Source: a virus. From it: 56,859 bases of DNA. Where the stretch lies: positions 1-56,859 of IMG/VR virus record IMGVR_UViG_3300045973_001145; one strand, written 5' to 3'. Of this stretch, positions 6,023 through 55,138 are shown piece after piece. The notes under the pieces were generated by a model. It was given only the letters and a program-made list of their open reading frames with translations, was not told the DNA's origin and searched no databases. Position 1 is the stretch's first letter, and every line of letters starts with the position of its first letter. A program made the position numbers and the translations under genes.

Positions 6023-6511
6023 ATGAAATATTTAAAGACTTTTGAAAATAGCTATGAAAGAACAATAGTTTATGAATATGTTTCTGAGCAAAATCGTATT
6101 AAGATTGAAAATTTTGTTCGGGAGTATATGAATAAAGATGAATTTTTTAAAAAAGTTAATCGCTTAAATAAGACTCATTTTGAAAACGATAATTATATTT
6201 ATAGAGATATTTTTAATACAATATTATCTGCAAATAAATATATATATTGGGAGATTGATAGATTTTGTTTGATTAATGATATAAATGAAAGTGCACCAGC
6301 TATTAGAAATACTTTAGTCGGTGTTTTACAAGAAATATATAAAGAATATTACTCTGAATTTAAACAAAAATTAGATGATAAATTAGTATCAATATTTGAA
6401 AAAAATCCAGATGAATATAAATCAAAATATCGTCTTATTTCTCAAAAACTTAACTCAGATGTTAAAAAAAGATGTGAATGGATGTTAATGACCGATAAAT
6501 ATAATTTATAA
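6023..6511 (+). CDS. Hypothetical protein with MKYLKTFE N-terminus
   Basis: The 162-residue helical protein begins MKYLKTFENS. The same octapeptide, or a near variant, opens unrelated products at 22627-23106, 54207-54497 and 54953-55138, so it looks like a detachable tag. The rest is Lys/Glu/Asn-rich without known domains. It is the first gene of a three-gene rightward operon that ends at the terminator at 7162-7189. Confidence 0.65.
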   Translation: MKYLKTFENSYERTIVYEYVSEQNRIKIENFVREYMNKDEFFKKVNRLNKTHFENDNYIYRDIFNTILSANKYIYWEIDRFCLINDINESAPAIRNTLVGVLQEIYKEYYSEFKQKLDDKLVSIFEKNPDEYKSKYRLISQKLNSDVKKRCEWMLMTDKYNL

Positions 6512-7207: not shown

Positions 7208-7496
7208 AGCCAAAATAGACTTTTGAATTTTGGATTAGCATTATCAGTCTTGCATTTATATTCATTAATTATTATCTCATTATATTTGCTTTTTTGGCTT
7301 CTATTATATTATTTATATATTATCTAGTTATTACCTCTTGGGCGGACTATTACATTTCTCCATTTTGTCGTTATTAAGGGTTTATATTTTATCTATATTA
7401 TTATCTCATATCTTACTAATCTAATTTATCTTGCTTTTCTGGCTTCTATATATCTAATTAAATTTATAAGATACCACTGGGCGGACCATTACATTT
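7208..7496. repeat. Two imperfect copies of a structured element in a gene-free stretch
   Basis: This is most of a 350-nt gene-free stretch. Unit 1 (7268-7357) and unit 2 (7397-7496) share, in the same order, ATTATTATCTCAT, then TGCTTTT[TC]TGGCTTCTAT, then TGGGCGGAC[TC]ATTACATTT. The linkers between these blocks differ. An upstream AGCCAAAA (7208-7215) is exactly complementary to TTTTGGCT (7292-7299). Conserved blocks with variable linkers suggest a duplicated RNA element or protein-binding array rather than a decayed gene. No reading frame is shared. Confidence 0.5.
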
Positions 7497-7542
7497 GTTA
7501 TCCATATTAATAAATGTTAAAAAGTGAAAATATGCTGTGATA

Positions 7543-7683
7543 TTAAGAGTTCAGTTTATTTTTATTCAACTCTTTTAGTTTATGATTGTAATAAATTGCA
7601 CGAAGTTTATAATAAAAAAGTAAAAATCCGAATGCTACTAATGCGGACAGAACGACAATACCTGCAATAATTAAAAATTTCAT
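7543..7683 (-). CDS. Single-span membrane miniprotein
   Basis: The 46-residue product has a hydrophobic helix at about residues 2-25, then a basic tail (KLKELNKNKLNS). It follows the promoter at 7715-7722 by about 32 nt. Function is unknown. Confidence 0.55.
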   Translation of the reverse strand: MKFLIIAGIVVLSALVAFGFLLFYYKLRAIYYNHKLKELNKNKLNS

Positions 7684-7714
7684 ATTAATAGTTTTTAAGT
7701 TTTTTTTAACTCTA

Positions 7715-7741
7715 CAAATATACGGGAAATTTTTGATATAA
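7715..7741 (-). promoter_or_regulatory. Leftward TAnnTTTG promoter
   Basis: The minus strand reads TATATCAAAAATTTCCCG followed by TATATTTG (7722-7715) and TAGAG. It is very similar to the promoters at 5975 and 8262. It drives the 7543-7683 miniprotein. Confidence 0.7.
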
Positions 7742-7751
7742 AAAAGGATTT

Positions 7752-8221
7752 TTAATAATTTCTTGTGACAATTAATTTATATTCTGGATTGTAACGTCTA
7801 TGATTATGTTCACCGCAAGAACGATCTCTTTTTGGTAGTCTGCTTAATTGTGTTTTATGATTGCATATTGGACAGGTTAAAGTGTATTTTTCAAGTCTTT
7901 CTGCGATAACATTAGCATCTTTATATTTTTCTACACCACCACATCTTTGACCATCACCACCAAGTTCAATGCATTTTCTTTTCCAAACATTATTATGATT
8001 GTGACCTTTTGTTAGAGCGTGTGCAATTTCGTGAATAATAGTATCTTTTATTGCTTCATCTGTCATGTCTGGAACAAGAACAGATGAAAGTTCTATTTGA
8101 AATTTGCGATACAGATGCCAAAAGCTCTTTTTCTATTATTAAAGGTTACTTTCCAAGCTATTAATTCTCTATGCTCACTTATTATTGTTTTTGCTAGTTC
8201 TATTGCTTGTTTGATATCCAT
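7752..8221 (-). CDS. SprT-like zinc metalloprotease, split by a -1 frameshift
   Basis: The C-terminal 104 codons (7752-8066) encode the SprT-like core: HEIAHAL with catalytic Glu and two His, a third His in the GHNHNNVW region, then a zinc ribbon starting CPIC. The missing N-terminal part (MDIKQAIELAKTII..., WKVTFNNRKRAFGICIANFK) lies just upstream in the other frame, from an ATG at 8221 to a TAG at 8093-8095. A -1 shift near 8099 joins them as ...IANF-(Q/K)-IELSSVLVPDM, exactly as the family requires. The shift site reads A-AAT-TTC (8105-8099), a possible slippery heptamer. A missing A in the assembly is the simpler explanation. Confidence 0.8.
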
Positions 8222-8261
8222 AAAAAATTGTTTAGAATTGTTTATTACTTTTTCAACACTA

Positions 8262-8289
8262 CAAATATACGGACTACTTTTGATATAAC
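8262..8289 (-). promoter_or_regulatory. Leftward TAnnTTTG promoter
   Basis: TATATTTG lies at 8269-8262 on the minus strand, with TATATCAAAA upstream. It overlaps the 3' end of the gene at 8274-8525 and gives the SprT gene a leader of about 35 nt. Confidence 0.7.
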
Positions 8290-8525
8290 CTCAACATTTC
8301 TAATTTATTTTTTCTTAAAAATTTTGTTGGTATAGGGAACCATGGCGAAATTGTAGGAGGCATAGTTTTACAAGTTGTACAATGAGCTTGAAAATAATTA
8401 TCATCAATTTCTATTTCATTTACAATAATACAGTTGTACTTGATATACATATCTTTCAATGATTTTTCAATTATACTTGTATTTTTTGATAGATAATCTT
8501 TTAATTTTAATTCCAGATCAGTCAT
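8274..8525 (-). CDS. Hypothetical protein with basic C-terminal tag
   Basis: The 83-residue product has two Cys and two His in its middle (HCTTCK) and ends FLRKNKLEMLRLYQK. This tail is a divergent member of the RKEKLKKLN-type C-terminal peptide found on many products in this window. Its ATG overlaps the stop of the upstream gene (TAATG). Function is unknown. Confidence 0.6.
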   Translation of the reverse strand: MTDLELKLKDYLSKNTSIIEKSLKDMYIKYNCIIVNEIEIDDNYFQAHCTTCKTMPPTISPWFPIPTKFLRKNKLEMLRLYQK

Positions 8526-8746
8526 TACATACTTTCTTGAAATCCTTTATTATGTTTTTCAATCATTTCGCTGATTTTGTTGAGTTCTTCAGCTATAACA
8601 ATTTGATTGCGTAGAATTGCTTCTTGCGATTTTAATGATGTAGCTTGAATAAGATCATTGAGTGTAAATGTTGAACACTTTCTTGCAAGATCAGAACACT
8701 CTTGAGCGTCCTGACTTGCGTTTTCAAAGAAAGATTTAGATATCAT
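8525..8746 (-). CDS. Small helical hypothetical protein
   Basis: The product (about 73 residues from MISKSFFENA) is helical, with a heptad-like C-terminal half (NQIVIAEELNKISEMIEKH). I chose the ATG at 8746, which overlaps the upstream gene by 11 bp. The ATG at 8788 would overlap it by over 50. Function is unknown. Confidence 0.55.
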   Translation of the reverse strand: MISKSFFENASQDAQECSDLARKCSTFTLNDLIQATSLKSQEAILRNQIVIAEELNKISEMIEKHNKGFQESM

Positions 8747-8930
8747 TTGTTGGTTTTTTACGAGGAAAGAATCTTCCAATAAAAACACCTAATGCAAATG
8801 CCAAAAGTAGTCCAAATGTGATTGCGACTTTAATTAAAAATGCTGCAAGACTTAGAATGAATGGCACTAATACGAAACCTAAAACAACTGCTGCTAGTAT
8901 GACTAGCAAAATAATAGCAATTTTACTCAT
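8736..8930 (-). CDS. Hydrophobic membrane protein
   Basis: Almost all of the 64 residues are hydrophobic, with two adjacent membrane segments (about 4-26 and 28-50) and a basic end (RFFPRKKP). It is the first gene after the promoter at 8963. Holin-like size and topology are noted, but there is no lysis gene next to it. Confidence 0.6.
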   Translation of the reverse strand: MSKIAIILLVILAAVVLGFVLVPFILSLAAFLIKVAITFGLLLAFALGVFIGRFFPRKKPTNDI

Positions 8931-8962
8931 AATGTATTGTTTTAATTGATTACAATTGACTA

Positions 8963-8986
8963 CAAATATACTAACAATTTTTGATA
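8963..8986 (-). promoter_or_regulatory. Leftward TAnnTTTG promoter
   Basis: TATATTTG lies at 8970-8963 on the minus strand, preceded by TATCAAAAATTGTTAG. It overlaps the 3' end of the secreted-protein gene at 8987 and drives the genes from 8930 to 8274. Confidence 0.65.
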
Positions 8987-10420
8987 CTACAAAGGTTTTA
9001 TAGGTAAATTATAATACCAAGAATAAAAATCTATATCAGTAGATTTTCGTTGCCTAGACCAATATGATATTGAAATCCAATAATAAGCTTGACCAGAAGC
9101 TAATGCAGGTAATCTAGTTTCTGTTGCAGGAATATTTTTATACTTACGAAATCTATATTGGTTATAATTTATTCTACTATTTACTACACAATTTTGAGTT
9201 TGCCAAGTTCCTGTTGAATTAGTAACTGGAACTAATGGAATTGTTTTATATCCAACAATTTTTGTTGTATCTAATACCATTCTATGACAATATATTAGAT
9301 ATTGATTAAACAGTGCATAATCTTCTATTTTTATTGTTGCTGGTGGTGGTCCAAAAATTGGTAATATTTTATAAGATGCATTATAATCATCAAGACTTGA
9401 TTTTCTTTGAAGTACATAATATGAAACCTTAGTCCAACTAATTGTTTTCCCAGTTGGTAAAATAGGCAATCTAGTTTCTGTTGAAGGAATACTTTTGTAT
9501 TTTTTAAATCTATATGGATTATAATTATTTGAAACTGTATTAATTATTTTTTGAGTAATATTAAAATTATTAGCGACTAATGGTTCAGAATATCCGACAA
9601 TTTTTACTGAATCTAATACTAATGTATTACAATAAGTTAGATATAGTCCAAATAGAGTTTTATCTTCAAATTTAACAGTTGATGGCGTTGTACCATAGCT
9701 GTAAGTTATTGTATTTGTATTTACTGTTAAATTTGTAATTACTGTGCTATCAGCGCCTAAAATAGATTTAAGATTTCTTGTATATTGTCCAGATATGGTA
9801 TGACCATTATAAATATGACCATTATTTATTGTTATATTTTCTGTTACTGTGTATTTTATTAATTTACAATACCAAGAATAAAAATCAGTGGTACTAGATT
9901 TTCTTTGAAGACAAGGATAAACAATTGTTGACCAATTTGCAATTTTACCTGTAGGTAATGTAGGCATTCTTGTTTCAGTTGATGGAATATTTTTCCATTT
10001 TTTAAGTCGGTATGGATTATAGTTATTAGTAGCTGAGCAAACAATATTTTGAGTTAAATATACACCGCTTTGAACTATAGGTGTAGCATATCCTATTATT
10101 TTAACTGTATCATAAACTATTTTATTGCAATACACAAGATATAATTTGTATAATTCAATATCTTTAGTTTTTAATCCTGTTGTTGATATTGTACCATATG
10201 TGAATGTTGAAGAACCAGTAATAGCTAGAGTAGTGCTTATGATACTGTCACAATTTGTGTGAATTGTTTTTAGTGTTCTTAGATATTTACCAGAAGTTGT
10301 GAATGTGTAATAACTTTGACCACCTGTGATTGTGATATTTTCAGTTATTGAATAGGTGCATTGAGAATACCCTATAAATGAAATAAATATTAATGCTAAA
10401 AAAAGAATTAATGTTTTCAT
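8987..10420 (-). CDS. Secreted three-repeat surface protein, host-like
   Basis: The 477-residue protein has an N-terminal signal peptide (MKTLILFLALIFISFIGYSQ) and three diverged copies of a roughly 115-residue module. Each module has YL.YC, KI.GY, NYN.YR.KK, IP.TETR.P.L and QRKS in order. Modules one and two are preceded by a sequence of the type TENITI-x-G...CDSII...L.I. This resembles the GCDSI..L.LT repeats of Bacteroidota surface proteins. It is probably exported or displayed on the cell. A phage origin for such a host-like protein is unusual. Function is unknown. Confidence 0.65.
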   Translation of the reverse strand: MKTLILFLALIFISFIGYSQCTYSITENITITGGQSYYTFTTSGKYLRTLKTIHTNCDSIISTTLAITGSSTFTYGTISTTGLKTKDIELYKLYLVYCNKIVYDTVKIIGYATPIVQSGVYLTQNIVCSATNNYNPYRLKKWKNIPSTETRMPTLPTGKIANWSTIVYPCLQRKSSTTDFYSWYCKLIKYTVTENITINNGHIYNGHTISGQYTRNLKSILGADSTVITNLTVNTNTITYSYGTTPSTVKFEDKTLFGLYLTYCNTLVLDSVKIVGYSEPLVANNFNITQKIINTVSNNYNPYRFKKYKSIPSTETRLPILPTGKTISWTKVSYYVLQRKSSLDDYNASYKILPIFGPPPATIKIEDYALFNQYLIYCHRMVLDTTKIVGYKTIPLVPVTNSTGTWQTQNCVVNSRINYNQYRFRKYKNIPATETRLPALASGQAYYWISISYWSRQRKSTDIDFYSWYYNLPIKPL

Positions 10421-16573: not shown

Positions 16574-17428
16574 ATGAATTATAAATGGCACTATGATAAT
16601 TTAATTAAAACAAGAAAAATTTTAGATAGAAAGAAATATAATGGAGCATATTATGAAGATCATCATATAATAATGACTTCAATGAATGGAACAGATGATA
16701 AAAATAATAGATTGTTATTAACAGCAAAAGAACATTATATTGCACATTATTTATTATGGAAGATATATAGAAATAATCAAACAGCATACGCATTTTTTTA
16801 TATGTGTATTGATGCTAATAAAACTGACCTTAAAATTTCAAGTAGAGTATATGAGGAAATTCGTATAGAATGTGCAAAAATTTCATCAAATACACTTAAA
16901 TCTCAATGGACTGATCCAGAAAAAAGAATAAAATTATCTGTGGCAAACAGTATAAAAAATAAAGGTCGAAAACATAGTGACGAAAGCAGAAAAAATATGA
17001 GTGAAGCACATAAAGGTATTAAACAATCTCAGGAATCTATAAATAAAAAAAATTTGAAATTAACTGGTCAAAAAAGATCAAATGAAACTAAACAACTTTT
17101 AAGTGAAAAGAATAAGGGAAGAAAAATATCAGATGAAACAAAAAAAAGGCAATCAATATCTGCAAATAATAGAATGATCTCTGAAGAAACTAAATTAGAA
17201 ATGTCTAAAAAAATGTCAATTTCAAAAAGTAAACCAAGAAAACAATATAAATTAATTTCATCAAATAACTATGAATATATATTTGATGGACTAAAATCTG
17301 TATTTGAGTTTGCAAAAAATAAAGAAATTTCGGTAACCTTACTTAAAAATTTTAAAAATAAAGGAAAAATAATCTCAAAGGCAAGACATACCGAAAATAG
17401 TAGTAATTGGGAATTTATTTCATTATAA
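16574..17428 (+). CDS. HNH homing endonuclease with NUMOD3 repeats
   Basis: The 284-residue protein has an N-terminal HNH-type core: a DHHI pair, then N and EHYIAHYLL at about residues 53-62. It is followed by several Lys/Ser-rich NUMOD3-type DNA-binding motifs (NKGRKHSDES, HKGIKQSQES, GQKRSNET, NKGRKISDET). It stands alone on the plus strand between leftward genes, as free-standing homing endonucleases often do. It is probably a selfish element cutting related phage DNA. Confidence 0.85.
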   Translation: MNYKWHYDNLIKTRKILDRKKYNGAYYEDHHIIMTSMNGTDDKNNRLLLTAKEHYIAHYLLWKIYRNNQTAYAFFYMCIDANKTDLKISSRVYEEIRIECAKISSNTLKSQWTDPEKRIKLSVANSIKNKGRKHSDESRKNMSEAHKGIKQSQESINKKNLKLTGQKRSNETKQLLSEKNKGRKISDETKKRQSISANNRMISEETKLEMSKKMSISKSKPRKQYKLISSNNYEYIFDGLKSVFEFAKNKEISVTLLKNFKNKGKIISKARHTENSSNWEFISL

Positions 17429-30842: not shown

Positions 30843-32399
30843 TTAAATAATTGATGTATCTACTGTTATTATATCACCAAAAAAATAATTACCTAAATAT
30901 AATGTATATGCTCTAAGATAATATGTAATACCAGGAGTAAATATATAATCTAAATTTGAAGACCAAGCCAATCCACTTAATCCTATTGTTTGCCCAGTTA
31001 ATTGTACTAAAACAGTGGTATATTGATTAGGATTTGGATTAATATCTAAGCATACCCCTAATTCTGTAACTTGTTGTTCACAATAATTTACAAATCCACC
31101 AGCATTAACAGTTGTGGTATCTATTACTATTGGTATTGTTGTAGTTGTTATTGGCTCATGTTTAAATCTTAATCCAGCTTGCCAATATCTATTTCCTCCA
31201 AAATCAACATATTTTTGATTACTTTTACCATTAATTGTAATTTCTTGAATATTTGAAGTATTTGAAAAATTAATTAATTCTCCATTCCAAGGCGAAATGT
31301 TCATTAATGTTGAAATAAAATCTATTCTACAAGCATAACCAATTGTGCTATAATAATTAGGATATACTCCTTGTTGATCAGCAGCAAAGCATAATCCTAC
31401 TATTTTTATTTGGCCTGATATATTTGCCAGTAATGCTGAGCCTGAATCTCCGTGCCAAATAGGATATTGACAAGAACTATATGGTGGGCTTGAGTTAAGT
31501 GTTGCTACAAACCCAATAGCATTTCTAAAAGAAACTGTAGAATTTTGAAAATTTTGCTTATTATAATTAATCATAAAAGAATTACCTAACGAAATAGCTT
31601 TTAATTTAGTAATACCTTCTCCTTTTGCTCCAGTTCTATCACCAGAACTATATAAATCTGGATTAGTGATTAATAAATTATCAATTTCTGATGTTGTTGC
31701 AAATTGATATGTATTTGCACTTAATCCTAATTGATAATATGAGTTAGAATCAATAACAGATTGATCTATTGTTGTTAATGCAATATCAATATCATTATCA
31801 GATTGATCAGTAATTGGATAATATCTTTTAATAACACCTATCGATTCTGATAAAATTGAATTATCTCCACCTGGTTGTGCTGTTATTTCATTTTTAATAT
31901 TAGTTGTTATATTATTAATATTTCTTGTCGAACAAATAAAAGCATCTCTAACATATACATGATTATTTGTCACTCCAACTAATGAATTTGTTTCATTATC
32001 TTTAGCTAAAAATCCTAATGTTGCTGGTCCTAATATTTCTCTTTGTGAATAGTTACTAGTAGATATGCCGCCACGTAATGGTCTAATTGATTCTGTGTTT
32101 GGAACAGTATAGCCAGTTGTGTTTTGCCATAAATAAAAAGATGGATCACACATTAACATAAAATTATTTTGAACAACGTCAGTTGAAATTATTTCATTAG
32201 ATATATTTATTGTTTTTGGTAATAATTGTTCTGGTTTTATATTTTCTAATGATAATTTTTCTTTAACAGTAAAAACTATAGATTTTTCATCTATTAGTAA
32301 TCCATTAACAGTTTTATATCCATATCCAACACCAATTATATTATCATCAGTATTTTTATAATACCCATTTATAGTTTGTAATAGTTCTTCTTTTATCAT
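30843..32399 (-). CDS. Trypsin-like serine protease with C-terminal Ig-type domain
   Basis: The 518-residue protein has the catalytic triad of chymotrypsin-like peptidases: H147 in VTNNHVY, an Asp at about 203-205 in DNDIDIAL and S319 in GDSGSALL. A beta-rich C-terminal region (about 415-518) resembles a fibronectin/Ig-type domain. There is no obvious signal peptide, so a virion-borne enzyme cutting host surface protein, or a processing protease, is more likely than a Sec-exported one. It abuts another structural-type gene. Confidence 0.75.
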   Translation of the reverse strand: MIKEELLQTINGYYKNTDDNIIGVGYGYKTVNGLLIDEKSIVFTVKEKLSLENIKPEQLLPKTINISNEIISTDVVQNNFMLMCDPSFYLWQNTTGYTVPNTESIRPLRGGISTSNYSQREILGPATLGFLAKDNETNSLVGVTNNHVYVRDAFICSTRNINNITTNIKNEITAQPGGDNSILSESIGVIKRYYPITDQSDNDIDIALTTIDQSVIDSNSYYQLGLSANTYQFATTSEIDNLLITNPDLYSSGDRTGAKGEGITKLKAISLGNSFMINYNKQNFQNSTVSFRNAIGFVATLNSSPPYSSCQYPIWHGDSGSALLANISGQIKIVGLCFAADQQGVYPNYYSTIGYACRIDFISTLMNISPWNGELINFSNTSNIQEITINGKSNQKYVDFGGNRYWQAGLRFKHEPITTTTIPIVIDTTTVNAGGFVNYCEQQVTELGVCLDINPNPNQYTTVLVQLTGQTIGLSGLAWSSNLDYIFTPGITYYLRAYTLYLGNYFFGDIITVDTSII

Positions 32400-43283: not shown

Positions 43284-44009
43284 TTAAGGTAAAAAAAGCC
43301 AATCTGAATTTTTTATTTGAGTTAATGAATAACCAATATCAATTAGCATTTTGAAAGTATTTTTAGTATATTCATAATTTACTTCGCCATAATGATTAGA
43401 CCAACATTCTACAGTAATTACTGGGTGACATTTTTTGATTGTGTTTAATGCTCCATTTATTACTTTCGACTCATATCCTTCAACATCTAATTTTATAAAA
43501 TCCAATTTATCTAAATTTAATGAATCTATTGTAATTAATTTAACTTCAACTTCATCATCATCTGTTTCAATCCATTTTGGCTTACCCATAGGATTATCTA
43601 ATAAACCAGAACCACCAATGTTTCCGAATGGTATCCATTCAAATTTAGTTTTTGATATTTTATCAGATAACCCACAAATAGAAACAATGACATTATCGCA
43701 ATTATTTATTAATAAATTTTTTTTAAGTAATTTATTAGATTCTGGTAATGGTTCAAAGCAATATAATTTTTTTGATAGTTTTGATAATTTGACACTATGA
43801 CTGCCAATATGACAGCCTCCTTCAATTACAACAGATTCTTTATTTATATACTTTTCAAATATTTTATGAAGATGCGGTTCATATATTTCACCCGATTTTA
43901 ATACATTAGAAAGAGAACAATTTGAAAAAACACTAAAATAGACAGTATAATTATTGTGATAATTTTTAATTTCAAATAATTGTTTCTCTGTATTATATTT
44001 TTCGTTCAT
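43284..44009 (-). CDS. FkbM-family methyltransferase
   Basis: The 241-residue protein has a class I SAM-binding core: VVIEGGCHIGSHSVKLS near residue 60, YCFEPLPES as motif II, and LDFIKLDVEGYESKVI near 170, the FkbM hallmark. The family O-methylates sugars or polyketides, so it may modify a glycan together with the nearby glycosyltransferases. It adjoins the PTH2 gene. Confidence 0.85.
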   Translation of the reverse strand: MNEKYNTEKQLFEIKNYHNNYTVYFSVFSNCSLSNVLKSGEIYEPHLHKIFEKYINKESVVIEGGCHIGSHSVKLSKLSKKLYCFEPLPESNKLLKKNLLINNCDNVIVSICGLSDKISKTKFEWIPFGNIGGSGLLDNPMGKPKWIETDDDEVEVKLITIDSLNLDKLDFIKLDVEGYESKVINGALNTIKKCHPVITVECWSNHYGEVNYEYTKNTFKMLIDIGYSLTQIKNSDWLFLP

Positions 44010-44425
44010 TACAATAGCTCTAAATGCTTTGTTATTTCATCAATTTCATTTGAGAATGCTGGACCAATAGCAATACAAGTTTTAGTTGGTATACCTTTGA
44101 ATTCTGTTAGTCCTGCATCAATTATCATAGTGCAAGGTAAATTTTTATTTTTTGCTTGCTGATATAGTTTATCTAATTCTTCTTCATCTTTACAGCTAAC
44201 TACAATCTTTGTAAATAGACCATTTAACCATAAATCCCATGCTGTATCTTTTTTATAATAGAAAGAATATACATCTAATACACCTTCTTTATCGTCATAA
44301 ATTGATCCTTTTTTACAACGGTCTAAAAATAATTTTAAACTCGAATGGGCTGCTTGTGCCATCATTTTACCTTTTCGAACTTTAAGATCCTTTCTCCAAA
44401 CTATAATTTGTTTTACTTGTTCCAT
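44009..44425 (-). CDS. Peptidyl-tRNA hydrolase, PTH2 family
   Basis: The 138-residue protein matches the archaeal/eukaryotic PTH2 fold along its length: KQIIVWRKDLKVRKGKMMAQAAHSS at the start, KIVVSCKDEEELDKLY, then TMIIDAGLTEF and KTCIAIGP. PTH2 cleaves peptidyl-tRNA and recycles tRNA. Bacteria use the unrelated Pth1, so this adds a second activity. It may rescue tRNAs during infection. Confidence 0.85.
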   Translation of the reverse strand: MEQVKQIIVWRKDLKVRKGKMMAQAAHSSLKLFLDRCKKGSIYDDKEGVLDVYSFYYKKDTAWDLWLNGLFTKIVVSCKDEEELDKLYQQAKNKNLPCTMIIDAGLTEFKGIPTKTCIAIGPAFSNEIDEITKHLELL

Positions 44426-44914: not shown

Positions 44915-46186
44915 TTATTTTACTTCAAATACTTTTTTAATTACATCAACATAATCTAATTTTTCCCAGCCAAAAAATTCGACTGTTTTGAATATTTTTG
45001 TTACACCTAAATGTGTAGTTGAATATGTTTTACTATCTTCATAATATACTTCAACATCTTTTTTATAACTATCTCTACCAAAATGACCATATGATGCAGT
45101 AGGTGTGAAAATAGGATTTTTTAGACCAAATCTTTCAATAATTGAATATGGTCTCATATCAAATAAAACTTTTAATTTTTCAGCAATAATATCATCTGGA
45201 AATTTTCCAGTTCCAAATGTATTAACATAAAAACCAACTGGCTTTGCTACACCAATAGCGTAAGCAACTTGAATTAAAACTTCATCAGCAACTCCTGCTG
45301 CTACTAAATTTTTAGCAATATGTCTAGTGGCATATGCTGCTGATCTATCGACTTTTGAACTATCTTTTCCTGAAAAAGCTCCACCACCATGAGCGCCTTT
45401 ACCTCCATATGTATCAACAATTATTTTACGACCAGTTAAGCCTGTATCACCGTGAGGACCACCTATTACAAATTTTCCAGTTGGATTGACTAATAACTTA
45501 AAATTATATTTGAATAAGTTTAAAATATCTGGTTCTAATAATTTTTTAACTCTTGGTAAAAGAATATCAACAATATCAATACCAATATCTTCAACATCAA
45601 TATTTTCATCGTGTTGAGTAGAAATTACAATAGTATCTATTTTTAATGGTATATTATTTTCGTCATATTCAATTGTGACTTGTGATTTACTATCAGGTCT
45701 TAAATATGTCATTTGCATTCCTTCTTTTCTAATATTAGAAAGTTCTTGTAATAATAAATGTGACAAATAGATAGTTAACGGCATATAACTTTTAGTTTCT
45801 TTACTTGCGTAGCCAAACATCATACCTTGATCCCCAGCACCTTGAAGTTCTGGATTTCCTCTATCAACGCCTTGATATATATCATTGGATTGCTCATGTA
45901 TTGTAGATATTACGCCACAAGATTCGCTTTCAAATTTATATTCTGCTTTTGTATAACCTATATTTGAAATAGTTTCACGAACAACTTTTTGTACGTCTAT
46001 ATAACCTTGCGTTCTAACTTCTCCAGCACATACAACTAATCCTGTTGTAACTAATGTTTCACAAGCAACTTTGGAGTTTGGATCATTTTTTAGAAATTCA
46101 TCTAGTAAAGCATCTGATATTTGATCTGCAACTTTATCTGGATGCCCTTCAGATACGCTTTCTGATGTAAATAAGTATTTAGTCAT
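44915..46186 (-). CDS. metK: S-adenosylmethionine synthetase
   Basis: The 423-residue protein is a full-length methionine adenosyltransferase with GHPDK (14-18), GAGDQG (about 116-121) and GGGAFSGKD (about 267-275). It is preceded by no other sulphur-metabolism gene. It makes SAM from methionine and ATP. In this window it probably boosts SAM for the DNA methyltransferases, FkbM and the ICMT-like enzyme. A complete phage copy is uncommon. Its AT-rich codons match the surrounding genes, so the gene has been here for some time. Confidence 0.95.
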
Positions 46187-46227: not shown

Positions 46228-47127
46228 TTAATTTATATCTATTGTATTGTGTATAATACTGCTAATTAATTCTGTTATATCTTGTGACTGCTCATTAAAT
46301 TTAATTATTACATTTGATATATTATTTTTATCACCTAAATCAATGAAATCACCATTATAAACAAAATTAATATAATTGTTAATATTAATTTCCAAATTGT
46401 CTGCATTATCATAAAAAAATAATCTCACATTTTGTTCTAGTGTATTTTTAATTATAAAAAATTTTAATCCATCAATTTTAGAATAGTTATGTAAGTCTGA
46501 ATGACCATGAAAAAGTACTTTATCATCAACAAAGTGATCTTCTATTGTATAATCAAAGAAATTCATTTTTAATAGGCCATCTAACCATTGCTCAGCTATA
46601 CCGCCAATATTTAAGTATTGATTTAAAGTTAATTGATTTAAAAATTTAATTAAATGTTCTCTATCAAAAATCATTAATTGTAAACTAACATTATGCTCAT
46701 GAAAATGATAAAAGTTACATTTTTTATCTGAATTAAATCCATCTATAACAATATCATCAATAATTAGATCATAAATAATATGATAAAATTGATCATAATC
46801 ATATGTTAATGCAAATTCACTTAATTTTTTTATTTGATATATGTTTGCCCAACCATAATCAGAAAAACATCTATTTTTTGTGATAGTTTTTCCATTTATT
46901 ATTGATGAATTCCATACATAGACTGCTTTCTCAGGCCATTCTAAAATCGGATTATCTTTTGTTAAAAAGAAGTAATCACATTTATTTATTAAATCTAATG
47001 GTAGTGATAATGGACTATTTAGCATCACATCAAGTCCTAAACTTTTTATTGTATCTATATTGCTTTTTAAAATTTCAATTTTTTCATCTGTATCACAATA
47101 AGAACTTATTAATACTATTTTTTTCAT
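46228..47127 (-). CDS. Glycosyltransferase-like protein
   Basis: The 299-residue protein opens with KKIVLISSYCDTDEKIEILK and contains LDVMLNSPLSLP and DYFFLTKDNP, a pattern I associate with phage and bacterial sugar transferases. It lies between MetK and the TonB receptor, in a region with two other glycosyltransferases and FkbM. Donor and acceptor are unknown. Confidence 0.6.
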   Translation of the reverse strand: MKKIVLISSYCDTDEKIEILKSNIDTIKSLGLDVMLNSPLSLPLDLINKCDYFFLTKDNPILEWPEKAVYVWNSSIINGKTITKNRCFSDYGWANIYQIKKLSEFALTYDYDQFYHIIYDLIIDDIVIDGFNSDKKCNFYHFHEHNVSLQLMIFDREHLIKFLNQLTLNQYLNIGGIAEQWLDGLLKMNFFDYTIEDHFVDDKVLFHGHSDLHNYSKIDGLKFFIIKNTLEQNVRLFFYDNADNLEININNYINFVYNGDFIDLGDKNNISNVIIKFNEQSQDITELISSIIHNTIDIN

Positions 47128-47207: not shown

Positions 47208-50200
47208 TTAATTAAATAGATATTTAATACCAAACATCATTTGCCATCTTGAACTAATACTAGTTGAGTTTTGATATGGTTGAGTAAATGGTGTTGTTCC
47301 TGTTTGGAATGGAAGAGAGAATGAAGGAGTTTTTCCATCAGCAGATAGACCTTCATATTTTATGATATTTGTTGCAGTCGGAATTCTAACTACACCCCAA
47401 TCTCTGTTAATGAAGTTTCCAGCATTAATCATATCCAATGAAAATCTAAGAGTGTTAGTTGAGTTGCCAACTTTAATTTTTAAATCTTGTGTGATATTCA
47501 AATCTAATTTACTATAATAGGGTGCTACAGCGGCATTTCTTTTAGCATATTGACCTCTATGAGTATTCAAATAAGTTGAATTAGAAATAAAAGCGTCCAA
47601 TTGTGACCATATTTGTGCAGATGTTCTTGTATCAGTTGAAGTTCCTGTACCTAAGCCACCAGAACCAACTTTAACTAAATTGATGTCAGTAATAGTTTTT
47701 GGAATATACATCAAGTCATTACCTGAATTACCATCACCATTTAAGTCGCCATTATAAGTATATGAATTTACACCGTTGTTAGCCAATTCATAAATTGCAC
47801 CAACTGATGTAGAAAGATTTTCTCCTTCATTAAGTTTGTATGCAAAATTAGCAATAACTCTATTAGGTTGATAATAAGATGCATAACCTAAATTTACTGA
47901 GTTAGGATCTTGATTAGCAACAGGTGCTGCACTCCATAAGGAAGATGCTGTTGATCCACCTTCTGCGGTGTTCTTAGATACTGAACGGGTGTATGCTACA
48001 CCATAAGATAAATTTTCAGTAGTTCTTTGAACTTTTCCAGTTAAAGTGTAAGTATAACCTTGACTTGAATTGCTCATTAAAATTGCATTACCAATATTAG
48101 GATTAGTCAAAGTTGCTGTTGGCGTTCCACTATAATACTTGTTAGTATTTGCTGTAGTTAAATAACGCATTCTATTATCAACACCACCCAATGCAAATCC
48201 ATTAGATTCATTTAAATTTATGTTAGAATAATAAACTGCATTGATGTCTTGAGTATAATTATATTCAGCACCAATTAGCCAGCCAGCTTCTAATTTCTTA
48301 TCAATAGCTATAGATGATTTCCAAGCTGTTGGATATTTGAAGTTGCTAGATACTAAGGCAGTACTATAAGAAGAATTAGGAGCTCCAGCAGTTGGTAGGT
48401 AAGTTGTAGGATCAGAATTAAATGCAATTTTGCTTTTTGTGAATGAACCAAATTGAATACCATTATTAGATGCCTGATTAGAAATCCAAACGAATGGTGG
48501 AGGTCCTGCAAAAATACCAGATCCGCCTCTTACTTGTAATGTTTTATCGCCAAATGGGTTCCAGTTGAAACCTAATCTTGGTGAAATAATAACATTATTC
48601 ATAGGTGCTTTACCAATATTATAAGTTGAGCCATCTTTGAATTTTAATGCATCAAAGTCTGGATTATCTGTCATTGCTTGTTTGTATAAAGTTTCATCAA
48701 GTCTTAACCCAGCAGTTAAAGTGAAATCATTTGTTACTTTCCATTTATCTTGAATGAACTGAGATAACTCTGTTGAACCTGCATTAGCCCAAGGAAATGC
48801 GCCACCAGGTAAAGCTGAATATTGTAAGTAATATGATTTAGCGTTTGCTGTACCATTTTTTGCTGAATTATAGAAGTCTGTCAAACTATTGAATTGATAA
48901 ACACCTTCATAACCAGGAGCAAATGCATTTTGATATTTCTTAATAGAGTTTTGAGTACCTACTGTTAATTCATGTGAGCCTTTATAATAAGTTAAAATAT
49001 CGTTTAATTGATAAACATCAGTATTTAACTTATTATTATAAGTGTACATTTCATAACCAAATGATGTGTAAATATTACCATTATTTAAAATATCAACCAA
49101 CGGCATTGTTGCACTACTAGAATGAGGCGAACGAAAATCTCTTAATGCGGTATAACCAATTTGTAATTTATTAGATAAACTATTATTAAAATGTGTATTT
49201 AATTCAGCTATTAAAATATTAAAATTGTTATTAATTACATAGCCACTACCAAAGAAAGGCATTGAATATGTACCTGGTTGTCCGCCAGTTGTTTGACCAG
49301 TACCTGGTCTTGAAGTAGATGCATATTGATCAGATGAAGATTTTAAGTAGTTATACTTCAAAGTGAAAGTATTCTTGCTATTAATGTTCCAGTCTAATTT
49401 TGCTGTGATCTTATCAGAATTAGTTTGAAATGAATATCCTTGGAAAGAGCCAGGATCATATCCATATTTAGTTTTTAAGAAACTAGATAAAACTTTCAAA
49501 GTATCTGCGTTTGCCTGAGAATAATTTCCACCAGCAGCATGAGATGCATCAGAAGCTTGCATTGAAGTTGCTGGAGCATTTTGTTTAGATTGTTCACCAC
49601 TTACGAAGAAGAACAATTTATCTTTGATAATTGGACCGCCTAAACTAAATCCTTTGATAGAATAATCAAAAGGAGTTTTTGTAACAGTTGTTGGACCAAC
49701 CTCGTAACCTAAATAATTTTGATTCCTAGAATATTGATAGATACTTCCTATAAATTTGTTTGTACCACTTTTTGTCACTGTGTTAACGCCTGTTCCAGCA
49801 AATCCACCTTGTTTAACATCATAAGGTGACACATTAACCTGAATTTGTTCAATAGCTTCTAATGAAATTGGTTGTGCGCCTGTTTGACCACCTAAGATAG
49901 ATGATAATCCAAATGAATTATTAAAATTAGCGCCATCGACTGTCATGTTATTGTATTGGTTACTTCTACCACCAATATTTAATCCGTTTGATGTTGGTTC
50001 TAATTTTACAAAATCTTGAATTGAACGGTTAATTGTTGGTAAACGATCAACTTGTGTTCTTGTAATTAATTCCTGAGAACCAGTTCTTGAACTACTAAAA
50101 GATTTATCATTAACTGCTGTAACAACAACTTCACCTACTTCTGTAGATTCAACTTTCATTACAAAATTTGCTTTAAAAGTTTGACCTAAATAAAGCATTA

Positions 50201-50474
50201 CATTATCTTGATGTTCTGTTTTTAAACCAACAAAACTAACATCAATTGAATAAGGTCCGCCAATTTTTAAATTTGGTAAATTGTAACGTCCATCATCACG
50301 TGTTGTAGTTCCATACTTTGTACCACTTGGAATGTGAGTTGCAATTACAGTAACATAAGGTAATGCTCCTTCAGTACCAGAAATAACACCCTGAATTTCA
50401 GATGTCGTTTCTTGTGCGTACATAAATAAACTACTAAACGTAAGTAAAAAAAGAAAAATTAATTTTTTAATCAT
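47208..50474 (-). CDS. Oar-like TonB-dependent outer-membrane receptor
   Basis: The 1088-residue protein has a signal peptide (about 1-20), a carboxypeptidase-regulatory-like domain (about 25-110), a plug domain (VEVVVTAVND-like segment, GRSNQYNNMTVDGANFNN, VSPYDVKQGGFAGTGVNTVTK, in part) and a long beta-barrel ending in an aromatic (GIKYLFN). This is the full architecture of Bacteroidota Oar/SusC-type receptors. It has its own terminator and phage genes on both sides. Codons are richer in G/C than nearby genes, which suggests recent acquisition from a host. It may replace or mask the phage receptor. Confidence 0.9.
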   Translation of the reverse strand: MIKKLIFLFLLTFSSLFMYAQETTSEIQGVISGTEGALPYVTVIATHIPSGTKYGTTTRDDGRYNLPNLKIGGPYSIDVSFVGLKTEHQDNVMLYLGQTFKANFVMKVESTEVGEVVVTAVNDKSFSSSRTGSQELITRTQVDRLPTINRSIQDFVKLEPTSNGLNIGGRSNQYNNMTVDGANFNNSFGLSSILGGQTGAQPISLEAIEQIQVNVSPYDVKQGGFAGTGVNTVTKSGTNKFIGSIYQYSRNQNYLGYEVGPTTVTKTPFDYSIKGFSLGGPIIKDKLFFFVSGEQSKQNAPATSMQASDASHAAGGNYSQANADTLKVLSSFLKTKYGYDPGSFQGYSFQTNSDKITAKLDWNINSKNTFTLKYNYLKSSSDQYASTSRPGTGQTTGGQPGTYSMPFFGSGYVINNNFNILIAELNTHFNNSLSNKLQIGYTALRDFRSPHSSSATMPLVDILNNGNIYTSFGYEMYTYNNKLNTDVYQLNDILTYYKGSHELTVGTQNSIKKYQNAFAPGYEGVYQFNSLTDFYNSAKNGTANAKSYYLQYSALPGGAFPWANAGSTELSQFIQDKWKVTNDFTLTAGLRLDETLYKQAMTDNPDFDALKFKDGSTYNIGKAPMNNVIISPRLGFNWNPFGDKTLQVRGGSGIFAGPPPFVWISNQASNNGIQFGSFTKSKIAFNSDPTTYLPTAGAPNSSYSTALVSSNFKYPTAWKSSIAIDKKLEAGWLIGAEYNYTQDINAVYYSNINLNESNGFALGGVDNRMRYLTTANTNKYYSGTPTATLTNPNIGNAILMSNSSQGYTYTLTGKVQRTTENLSYGVAYTRSVSKNTAEGGSTASSLWSAAPVANQDPNSVNLGYASYYQPNRVIANFAYKLNEGENLSTSVGAIYELANNGVNSYTYNGDLNGDGNSGNDLMYIPKTITDINLVKVGSGGLGTGTSTDTRTSAQIWSQLDAFISNSTYLNTHRGQYAKRNAAVAPYYSKLDLNITQDLKIKVGNSTNTLRFSLDMINAGNFINRDWGVVRIPTATNIIKYEGLSADGKTPSFSLPFQTGTTPFTQPYQNSTSISSRWQMMFGIKYLFN

Positions 50475-50589
50475 ATTATTTACATTTTTTTTTATAATAT
50501 TCCTAAGAATATGTTTTTTTTATAAAAAAAATAGTTGTTTGTTTATATTAAAATTGATATATAATGATTAATTTTTGTTAATTTTACAA

Positions 50590-51792
50590 TTAAATATCAT
50601 TGAGAATCTTAATTGCTTTATTTGCAGCATTTACCCATGAGAATTCGGTTCTTATTAATTCTGAATCTTTAAGTGCGATTTCTTTATATTTCCAATAATT
50701 GGTATAAACATCTCTCATTATTTTTGATAAATCATCAAAATCTGGCTGATAATAATTCCCAACAAATCCTGGTATAGCCTTTTCTCCTAAAATTTTAACT
50801 GGATGCCCTTTACCTTTTGCATATTCTAATTGGGCACTACAATTAGAATATATTGATGGTGTACCACAAGCCATAGCTTCTATTAATGGAAGATTAAACC
50901 CCTCTGATCTTGAACAAGATAAGAAAACATGACCATTTCTTAAATAATTAATATAATCTTGTCTTGCTAAGAAATGAAGAACTTTTAATCTATCATCTTT
51001 AAAATTAAAATGATTTAATCTTTCTTCGGTAGTTTTCATACCATCAACTGCATAATCAGCATTATCCACAGCTAATATAAGATCAACAGGCTCATTTTTA
51101 TTAAATGTTTTAAGGAATGTTTGAATAATTTCAGTTGTTGATTTTCTATATTCCCATCTACCAAAGAGTATAAATTTGAATTTATTATCTTTATACATAT
51201 TTAAATTATAATTAAAATAATCTGGATTAAATATATTACCATCAACAGCTTCAGGTATAACAAAAACTTTATTTGCAGGATAACCTTGATTTATAATACA
51301 TTGTTTTTGCCATTCAGATGGACACCAAAATTGATCAAATTTTTTAAGTATTTCGAAAAAATTATTATCGTATAATGTTGATTCCCAAACATTGTAAGCA
51401 ATTTTGAAACCTTTATATTTTTCCATTTGATGAAAATATGGATGATCTGTTTCACTAAGAATAATATCAATAATATTTTCTTGACTATATTTTTTAAGAT
51501 ATTCATTACCATCATTAATTTCATAATCACAAATTCCTGTATCACAATATAATGTTTGTTCACATAATAATGATCTCTGATAATCAGTTATATACAATTC
51601 GTGTTTATGTGGATCATTATAACGACCATAGATGTTTTTTGGTCCTAAGCCAATCCAACTTTTTCCTATTGTAAAATTTCTAAGTTTTAAATCTATTTTT
51701 TGACTTAATGCTGTGAAAAAATCTCTTGCGTGAGCGTTATAGCCAGTTTGCCCAATAAAGCTTGTGTGACCTTTTACGAAATAATTATTCAT
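50590..51792 (-). CDS. GT4-type glycosyltransferase
   Basis: The 400-residue protein has the C-terminal half of GT-B glycosyltransferases: FILFGRWEYRKST near residue 208 and SCSRSEGFNLPLIEAMACGTPSI near 295, with the E-x7-E motif. It would transfer a sugar from a nucleotide-sugar donor. Its start overlaps the tagged gene upstream by 8 bp. Confidence 0.85.
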   Translation of the reverse strand: MNNYFVKGHTSFIGQTGYNAHARDFFTALSQKIDLKLRNFTIGKSWIGLGPKNIYGRYNDPHKHELYITDYQRSLLCEQTLYCDTGICDYEINDGNEYLKKYSQENIIDIILSETDHPYFHQMEKYKGFKIAYNVWESTLYDNNFFEILKKFDQFWCPSEWQKQCIINQGYPANKVFVIPEAVDGNIFNPDYFNYNLNMYKDNKFKFILFGRWEYRKSTTEIIQTFLKTFNKNEPVDLILAVDNADYAVDGMKTTEERLNHFNFKDDRLKVLHFLARQDYINYLRNGHVFLSCSRSEGFNLPLIEAMACGTPSIYSNCSAQLEYAKGKGHPVKILGEKAIPGFVGNYYQPDFDDLSKIMRDVYTNYWKYKEIALKDSELIRTEFSWVNAANKAIKILNDI

Positions 51793-52618
51793 TTCTTATG
51801 CTATTTAATTTTTTAAGTTTTTCTTTTCTATAATAAGAGATGCTTCTCGAATTTAATGTGAGATATTGAGAATATGCACTACCAACAGATGCAATACAGT
51901 AATACATTATAATATGATTTCCTTGTGGTGTTTTTATTTCATCAAATTTAATAAATCCATCAGTATCTGTTAATATTAAACAATGTGTACCTATATTTTC
52001 CATATTATTTTTTCTACCCATTAAAATTAATCCATCATCTATGGAATTGTTAATATTATAAGCTATTGTTCCAAGTTGTAAGATTCCATTACCATCATAA
52101 ACATGTTGAATACCAATTAAATAATTAAGAATATATTTATATGTTTTTGAGTTTGATATCATAAAATTTGCTGGACCTATTCTACCATTAACAGCGATAA
52201 AACTACCAGCAGATATAAATTTTGATAATAGTTTTCTTGATGTTAATACTGAATCATCAGTTTTAAAGTATTTTATATTTATATCTAATCTATTATTATC
52301 TAAATTTTCATTTCTATTTTGTTCACCTAATTTAGATATTTCTTCAATAAAATTTTTTTGTATTCCTGAATTTATAAATTTAATATAGTTGCTATGATTA
52401 TCATCTAAATGATCTTGTGATTTAAATCCTAATCTAATATCAGTTTTAAATGTCTTAGTATAAACTTGAAGTCCTACTGTTGTTGAAAGTGATGATGTTT
52501 GAGCTGAAGGATTATTAATTCTATAATCCATATATGATACATCAATTATGCTATTGTTTACTGGTATTATTGTAAAAAAAGTATTGTTTAGTTCTTCAGG
52601 TTTAATATTAGGTATCAT
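51785..52618 (-). CDS. Hypothetical protein with RKEKLKKLN tag
   Basis: The 277-residue protein has a segment (VNGRIGPANFMISNS near residue 145) loosely reminiscent of T4-type capsid proteins, then a beta-rich end. It finishes SYYRKEKLKKLNSIRNE, an exact tag. The GT4 gene starts inside the last codons. The family is not recognised, and the capsid likeness is a weak impression. Confidence 0.6.
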   Translation of the reverse strand: MIPNIKPEELNNTFFTIIPVNNSIIDVSYMDYRINNPSAQTSSLSTTVGLQVYTKTFKTDIRLGFKSQDHLDDNHSNYIKFINSGIQKNFIEEISKLGEQNRNENLDNNRLDINIKYFKTDDSVLTSRKLLSKFISAGSFIAVNGRIGPANFMISNSKTYKYILNYLIGIQHVYDGNGILQLGTIAYNINNSIDDGLILMGRKNNMENIGTHCLILTDTDGFIKFDEIKTPQGNHIIMYYCIASVGSAYSQYLTLNSRSISYYRKEKLKKLNSIRNE

Positions 52619-53625: not shown

Positions 53626-54210
53626 ATGGAAAAATTTACACAAATAGAAGATAAGCCAATTGTACCAGAAGATGAAGTATTATTTAACGGAAATCATATA
53701 GACATGATTAAGTATAAAGATACTGAAATTATGCAAATTGGTGATAAAGTTGCGATACTACCATATTTTAGAGATGAAGCAACATTCTTAATGAGATTAG
53801 AATATACCCCAGCATATCAATATAAAAATCGTGATAAGTCAAATTTGAAAAGAATAACAAATTATTTGACTGTTATTACAGAAGCAATGGAGCAAGGTGA
53901 AACACCTGAGCAAACAATTAGAAGAGGATTATACGAAGAAGGTGGAATAGTTCTAAATAATTTATATCCATTTGAAGTAGAAGGTCCTTTTTTTGTTGAT
54001 AAATTTAGTACAGGACAAATGTATATTTGCTTGTTAGAATTACCTGTAAATTCATTTCGTCAAATTAAACCACCAACAGATGGCTCAAAAAATGAAAAAT
54101 TATCAAAAAATATTATAATTTCAATTGGTGATGTTAATCAAATTGTTAATAATGACTTACTTACTAAATATTTAATTAGTAAATTAATACAAAGAATAGC
54201 AAATACATGA
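53626..54210 (+). CDS. Nudix-like hydrolase
   Basis: The 194-residue protein has a degenerate Nudix box: GETPEQTIRRGLYEEGGIV near residue 104. The EEGG half is kept but the usual RE pair reads RG. It may hydrolyse a nucleoside diphosphate derivative or be catalytically altered. The next gene starts inside its stop. Confidence 0.6.
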   Translation: MEKFTQIEDKPIVPEDEVLFNGNHIDMIKYKDTEIMQIGDKVAILPYFRDEATFLMRLEYTPAYQYKNRDKSNLKRITNYLTVITEAMEQGETPEQTIRRGLYEEGGIVLNNLYPFEVEGPFFVDKFSTGQMYICLLELPVNSFRQIKPPTDGSKNEKLSKNIIISIGDVNQIVNNDLLTKYLISKLIQRIANT

Positions 54211-54497
54211 GATATTTAAAAACATTTGAATTATATAATACATCAACAGGAAATTATGTTGATTATAAAGAAGGTGATATTGTTGTTTGTGACGAACCAA
54301 CATCTAATCTTTTTTTAGTAAAAGATAAAAAATATAAGGTTTTAAGAATTTATACTTCAATAGAATATAAAATGATGGGTAAACCTTATTTAATAGTAGA
54401 TGTAGAAGATGTTGAAACTGGTGAAATATCAAAAGGTTGGGAATCAACTAGATTTCACGCAATTGTTGAATTTGATGTGGATAAATATAATTTTTAA
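54207..54497 (+). CDS. SH3-like protein with MRYLKTFE N-terminus
   Basis: The 96-residue product begins MRYLKTFELYN and continues as a beta-rich domain (YKEGDIVVCDE, KYKVLRIY). It shares the N-terminal octapeptide with the products at 6023 and 54953. Function is unknown. Confidence 0.6.
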   Translation: MRYLKTFELYNTSTGNYVDYKEGDIVVCDEPTSNLFLVKDKKYKVLRIYTSIEYKMMGKPYLIVDVEDVETGEISKGWESTRFHAIVEFDVDKYNF

Positions 54498-54952: not shown

Positions 54953-55138
54953 ATGAAATATTTAAAAACATTTGAAGAAATAACGCCAGTTGAATATGTT
55001 GCGCCACAAGTAGATCATCCATCATATAAAGCTGAGGAAAAAAAGAAAAAAAGAAAAAAAAGTGGTATTGGAATGGAGCCTCTTATGGTTCTACCTAATA
55101 AAACTAAAGATGCAATATCTTTCAAAGCTAAACCTTAA
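54953..55138 (+). CDS. Small protein with MKYLKTFE N-terminus
   Basis: The 61-residue product begins MKYLKTFEEITPVEY and continues with a Lys-rich centre (EEKKKKRKKSG). It heads a three-gene rightward unit with a membrane protein and the CHAP lysin. Confidence 0.6.
   Translation: MKYLKTFEEITPVEYVAPQVDHPSYKAEEKKKKRKKSGIGMEPLMVLPNKTKDAISFKAKP

Follow-up and report, generated by a model that had tools for sequence, protein, structure and literature searches.

A putative Oar-family TonB-dependent receptor in a fixed accessory slot of large Bacteroidota phages

The window analysed here is the IMG/VR virus record IMGVR_UViG_3300045973_001145 (56,859 nucleotides, probably a fragment), which encodes on its minus strand a complete Oar-type TonB-dependent receptor (TBDR) of 1088 residues. 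Comparative sequence analysis and the predicted fold indicate, with a probability of roughly 95%, that this protein is a functional, host-derived outer-membrane receptor whose gene, an accessory one, occupies a fixed slot beside a glycosyltransferase gene of a large Bacteroidota phage, and that the family was acquired several times, with its alleles being replaced within the slot.

Architecture of the receptor and its phage locus

The reading frame is uninterrupted on the minus strand, while the plus strand of the same interval has 96 stop codons. The predicted protein consists of a signal peptide, a periplasmic regulatory domain, a candidate TonB box, a plug domain and a β-barrel (Table 1). 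The match to the barrel family OMP_b-brl_4 (PF25183) covers residues 233-1023 with an E-value of 4e-50. The plug family PF07715 stays just below its cut-off of 23.9 bits in the protein search (E 2.8e-4, 21.8 bits) and exceeds its cut-off in the DNA-level search (25.4 bits). In an alignment of 38 phage and bacterial copies (A3), the plug carries invariant residues, and Val116 and Val118 of the candidate TonB box are almost invariant. The AlphaFold2 model is confident (pLDDT 86.4, pTM 0.82), with a short helix of low pLDDT at residues 1-20 and a flexible TonB-box linker at residues 111-122. In a structural similarity search of the PDB with this model, the matches listed are TonB-dependent receptors, among them FusA (4zgv, E 1.2e-35), YddB and FepA. 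Sequence searches of the protein (P0001) gave no match in NCBIfam and none in the PDB, and a PDB profile search gave only a marginal match of the N-terminal domain to 6ytc (E 0.0086). Altogether, reading frame, Pfam domains and fold agree with the original prediction, made from the sequence alone, of a complete receptor with signal peptide, regulatory domain, plug and barrel; the terminator of its own that it ascribed to the gene is likewise found, directly after the stop codon.

The same prediction placed the gene among phage genes, which is borne out by a T4-type gp32 single-stranded DNA-binding protein, an RNA ligase, a polynucleotide kinase and a homing endonuclease on the contig, and by flanking genes that are syntenic with other phage contigs of up to 308-330 kb. 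Judged by gp32 and RNA ligase, the nearest named records are the megaphages LR756501-4 and LR745206 of 635-735 kb. On the window contig itself, which is probably a fragment, neither a portal nor a terminase was matched; in its own phage genus a search for the T4 portal found none, and the matches to the phrog_2 terminase are weak.

The gene order Nudix, conserved gene, GT4-type glycosyltransferase and Oar is common to the window and to L003, L004 and L113, three contigs from other metagenomes. In each of the three, GT4 and Nudix share 74-77% identity with their counterparts in the window. The contigs L151/L152 (113 and 168 kb) and L156 (308 kb) possess the GT4 locus and lack Oar anywhere, L159, L161 and L170 have neither GT4 nor Oar at the slot position, and no Oar occurs anywhere in the L159-L166/L170 contigs (58-330 kb). 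In L151 the GT4 gene is directly followed by a short open reading frame and a methyltransferase, and in L003 the Oar gene precedes a homologous methyltransferase. Since relatives have the locus without Oar, the gene is accessory and inserted at a fixed slot, and the receptor is absent from the close relatives L151/L152, L156, L159-L166 and L170. The GT4 homologue of L003 lies in a single 776-residue frame (7220-9550) with GT4 similarity in only the first ~310 residues, and is perhaps fused or frameshifted.

The original prediction named misassembly from a co-sampled bacterium as what would refute it. Some of the Oar contigs in IMG/VR may indeed be bacterial or end at a contig edge (L007, L009-L011). 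At the receptor locus, the same GT4-Oar junction recurs in the independent contigs L003, L004 and L113, which rules out misassembly or bacterial contamination there, and 10 of 36 tested Oar-bearing contigs, from lineages other than that of the window, also encode a T4-type portal and terminase. An artefact of this kind in the window contig is thus exceedingly improbable. The T-tract-ATA element upstream of the receptor gene is found likewise at -55/-56 in L003 and L004, which weakly suggests a conserved upstream promoter in this AT-rich DNA.

Acquisition and replacement of Oar genes

Scanning IMG/VR with an alignment of phage Oar proteins yielded 52 loci, many of them on contigs of 100-274 kb. 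A quick tree of 111 proteins, in which the “phage” rows L007 (which stops at the contig edge) and L119 are doubtful, contains 10 changes between phage and bacterium labels, every one forced by well-supported branches. Apart from the window clade, the phage proteins fall mainly into clade B (14 copies, all from phages; L092 and others, on contigs up to 274 kb), the group L008/L122/L124/L128/L132, and clade D near Algoriphagus (L005/L006 and L105-L117), with L113 joining Flavobacterium. This phylogeny against bacterial receptors, proposed as a check in the original prediction, indicates a receptor of bacterial (Bacteroidota) descent that is carried by a phage. A single phage acquisition is ruled out by the tree together with the approximately unbiased (AU) test described below, with the caveat that the gene is mosaic. 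As judged from these sequences, unrelated large phages have taken up Oar genes on several occasions, and carriage of this family is recurrent.

Among 50,697 GenBank phage records we found no full-length Oar except on the 6-kb faecal contig MT837825, the phage origin of which is not shown, besides a match of 75 residues in MT836368. In bacteria, the subfamily of at least 80% identity occurs in one of 393 sampled Bacteroidales genomes, that of the nearest homologue L012 itself, and among 398 genomes from the order to which L015, a Chitinophagaceae metagenome-assembled genome (MAG), belongs, 32 have relatives of 50-75% identity. Clade-B phages also encode a second, different TBDR in frames of 760-830 residues (L182 at G016:1600-2271, G017:43613 and G031:69488), and that of L182 is TIGR01782-like, with a score under the cut-off of that model.

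Within the slot, the receptors of the syntenic phages do not share one history. A single clade of the Oar proteins of the window, L003 and L004 is rejected (AU p 3e-7): the L003 protein pairs with L014, a copy in a Marinilabiliales MAG (89% identity), and that of the window with L012, a copy in a Prolixibacteraceae MAG (86%). By thirds of the protein, a single clade is rejected for residues 1-235 (2e-5) and 661-1088 (4e-5) and not rejected for residues 236-660 (p 0.083), and the split between window and L004 rests mainly on the N-terminal third; as the thirds disagree, the Oar genes of the slot look mosaic. Moreover, L113 has in this slot an Oar protein of only 36-37% identity, which groups with Flavobacterium. 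In a second lineage, L002 has clade-B neighbours (kinase 49-54% identical, others 54-65%), but its Oar is of the window type, 81% identical to that of L003 and 51-53% to those of clade B. These sequence comparisons indicate that the slot receptor is repeatedly replaced, new alleles being drawn from bacteria or other sources without a change in the position of the slot. Recurrent carriage, accessory slot and receptor replacement were all absent from the original prediction. A possible driver of the replacement is the homing endonucleases by the slot: one of the phrog_12131/DUF7487 type lies directly beside Oar in L004 (13316-14443) and near Oar in L113 (13826-14977). The window has one of another type (phrog_655) at 16574-17428, away from Oar.

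The original prediction had further called the codon use of the gene richer in G/C than that of its neighbours, and had taken this as a sign of recent transfer. The first part stands for total GC, which is ~0.32 in the receptor gene versus ~0.26 in the contig. At synonymous third positions (GC3) it does not, as the value of 0.138 hardly differs from the 0.106 +/- 0.041 of the other contig genes (z 0.7); the excess lies in codon positions 1 and 2, at 0.404 against 0.41-0.43 in bacterial Oar genes, and is due to the amino-acid composition of the protein. Recent transfer, as judged from codon GC, is not supported, given this GC3 value and the synonymous divergence (dS) of 0.74 (NG86) from the nearest bacterial homologue L012. 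A GC3 excess is still present in the Oar genes of L003 (z 3) and L004 (z 4). The bacterial Oar genes L012 and L013 have a GC3 below that of their chromosomal flanks (z -3.4 and -2.6, from few genes), so that some transfers may have run in either direction.

Selective constraint and proposed role

Pairwise omega values within the phage Oar clades are mostly 0.04-0.23 (NG86, with dS partly saturated), which indicates strong purifying selection that keeps the phage genes intact. A bacterial gene caught by chance and carried without function might be expected from the frequent transfers between bacteria and phages on the tree and from the relatives that live without Oar. Such passive cargo is very improbable in view of these omega values and the full-length frames in divergent phages, of the phage-only clade of 14 copies at a conserved position, and of at least two slots in which one Oar has given way to another.

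By region, the tightest constraint lies on the plug (omega 0.05-0.07), with 0.06-0.11 for strands and 0.06-0.18 for loops; the topology is taken from the strands of the model and from TBDR architecture in general. Loops evolve at about the pace of the strands in clade D as in the window clade, the phage loops are no faster than those of bacterial copies, and the long loops are 87-92% identical within the closest window-clade pairs, equal to or above the strands. Diversification of loops in a receptor arms race is thus not seen in either clade. The tight plug and the loops no faster than in bacteria lean towards an energised transporter over a loop-diversified decoy, because a passive decoy would need neither a plug nor a TonB box.

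We therefore weigh, at about even odds, a role in which the receptor is exported during infection, couples to TonB and transports a substrate across the outer membrane, with alleles matched to the host. The phage would express the receptor gene, which has a signal peptide and a terminator of its own; the protein would be exported, assembled in the host outer membrane and energised by host TonB-ExbBD through the retained TonB box and plug. It would then actively move a substrate over the outer membrane, most likely importing a nutrient, for example a peptide, a glycan or a chelate, which might supply the cell through a long jumbo-phage infection, and allele replacement would keep the receptor matched to the current host. 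Nutrient supply was one of three possible roles named in the original prediction, beside replacement of the phage receptor of the host and a block to superinfection, and each of the three may still apply.

Several observations weigh against this transporter role. The clade-B loops evolve 1.65 times faster than the strands, with a similar ratio in bacterial Hymenobacter Oar proteins. Neither a partner enzyme nor a SusD-like lipoprotein was noticed beside the receptor gene. The slot neighbours in L003 (DegT, an epimerase and a GDP-mannose dehydratase) and L002 (a GlcNAc transferase) would suit surface remodelling equally well. In addition, the closest characterised Oar, that of Myxococcus, is needed for protease secretion rather than import (PMC6434023).

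The main rival to the transporter is surface remodelling or superinfection exclusion, in which the phage receptor displaces an Oar-type receptor of the host, so that later phages or bacteriocins no longer bind, and glycosyltransferases alter the surface glycans. It would fit the GT4 gene bordering the slot, the sugar-nucleotide genes of L003 and the GlcNAc transferase of L002, and the replacement of alleles; moreover, TBDRs are common phage receptors, and one of them, FhuA, is reported to be inactivated by the phage proteins Cor (PMC11436027) or Llp (PMC9586334). We consider it unlikely, though a serious contender, given that the loops predicted to face the surface show no diversification against bacterial copies, their omega lying close to that of the strands in clade D as in the window clade, and that the plug, dispensable to a passive decoy, is the most constrained part. 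Furthermore, superinfection-exclusion proteins are described as small blockers, and none is known to be a full receptor.

Protein secretion, with the receptor exporting a phage or host protein such as a protease or depolymerase late in infection, as Myxococcus Oar does with PopC, is an improbable third role. The window encodes a possible trypsin-like protein with a GDSGS motif (30843-32399), but no conserved cargo gene is seen beside the receptor in the phage clades examined, and exporting and importing TonB-dependent transporters share no distinguishing sequence feature (PMC6434023). Given that such genes were acquired many times, swapped at fixed places and kept intact by selection, phages probably use these receptors to change the uptake or surface display of the infected cell.

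Phage-encoded TBDRs are treated, among open PMC papers, mainly in PMC9723777, which reports a SusC-type receptor as an auxiliary gene of megaphages (Mar_Mega_1, LR745206). Like the Oar of the window it is an outer-membrane TBDR encoded by giant phages, and the megaphage records nearest to the window by gp32 and RNA ligase belong to that set. In the viral structure library, a phage protein of this name is the sole TBDR among the named matches. This SusC protein (probably BFVD A0A8D9FQQ5) belongs to a different subfamily, with 805 residues, 10% identity and a TM-score of 0.59 by its own length, and the available part of PMC9723777 describes neither repeated acquisition nor slot replacement. A tblastn search of these megaphages, including LR745206, with the Oar query gave no match; the megaphages W01 (LR745206), W02 (LR756501) and W04 (LR756502) have plug-domain proteins of other subfamilies in frames of 666-883 residues. 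Measured against the open PMC literature, the presence of Oar receptors in phages is new, as are their acquisition on several occasions, their accessory slot and the exchange of alleles in it, and with this second receptor family a single megaphage oddity becomes a recurrent phenomenon.

Bacterial Oar-like receptors of Chitinophagales and Bacteroidales share PF13620, Plug and PF25183 and are 65-86% identical over the full length; unlike that of the window they are chromosomal, and the closest subfamily is rare in the sampled Bacteroidales. The likeness to Myxococcus xanthus Oar, by description, lies in the family name, the N-terminal extension domain, the plug with TonB box and the barrel, whereas that protein is bacterial and needed for PopC secretion (PMC6434023). 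Cor (phi80, N15) and Llp (T5) are also phage proteins that act at an outer-membrane TBDR, FhuA, but are small blockers, whereas the window encodes a complete receptor.

Outer-membrane receptors are classic entry points of phages, and carried or swapped ones bear on how phages reshape the surface, exclude rivals and feed the cell; they are also a possible route by which transporters move between bacterial orders. We tentatively suggest, as somewhat less than an even chance, that large Bacteroidota phages keep a receptor slot, often by surface-glycan genes, which is refilled with the receptors of successive hosts, possibly helped by homing endonucleases, and that they could thereby reprogram the envelope so that uptake or phage sensitivity suits the host, and move receptors between bacterial orders.

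Mapped features and further observations in the window

Table 1. Positions of the receptor gene, its parts and its neighbours in the window
Feature	Position	Strand	Basis or remark
Oar-type TonB-dependent receptor gene, 1088 aa, complete ORF	47208..50474	-	ORF, Pfam, AlphaFold2, structure matches
Predicted signal peptide, residues 1-21, ending ...MYAQ	50412..50474	-	Hydrophobic N-terminus, by inspection
Periplasmic CarboxypepD_reg-like domain, residues 27-107	50154..50396	-	PF13620, E 6.7e-14
Candidate TonB box/linker, residues 112-120, EVGEVVVTA	50115..50141	-	Position and motif, alignment A3
Plug domain, residues 134-230	49785..50075	-	PF07715; slowest-evolving part of the receptor
Outer-membrane β-barrel, residues 233-1088	47211..49778	-	PF25183, AlphaFold2 strands
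Intrinsic terminator, 14-pair stem then T tract	47200-47167	-	Just 3' of the stop codon
T-tract-ATA element, ~55 nt upstream of the receptor start	50519..50530	-	Possible promoter, weak
GT4-type glycosyltransferase bordering the slot	50590..51792	-	74-76% identical in L003, L004, L113
Conserved neighbour gene	51785..52618	-	30-39% identical in slot relatives
Nudix-like gene, backbone marker of the phage genus	53626..54210	+	72-79% identical
Gene downstream of the receptor	46228..47127	-	No family match
S-adenosylmethionine synthetase (MetK)	44915..46186	-	82% identical to L003

Besides S-adenosylmethionine synthetase, the window carries a likewise phage-borne peptidyl-tRNA hydrolase 2 (44009-44425). 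The possible trypsin-like protease, recognized by inspection, has 518 residues and an NHVY motif in addition to GDSGS.

Many otherwise dissimilar small proteins of the phage genus start with the tag MKYLKTFE or MKHLKTYE. Such tagged frames lie at 6023-6511, 54207-54497 and 54953-55138 in the window, and there are 13 in L113, 10 in L151, 13 in L159 and 10 in L161. The tag is absent from the unrelated phages tested and nearly always N-terminal, with one internal match in the window and none in L113, L151, L159 and L161. By analogy with the T4 capsid-targeting sequence, which we take it to resemble, the tagged small proteins may be internal head proteins.
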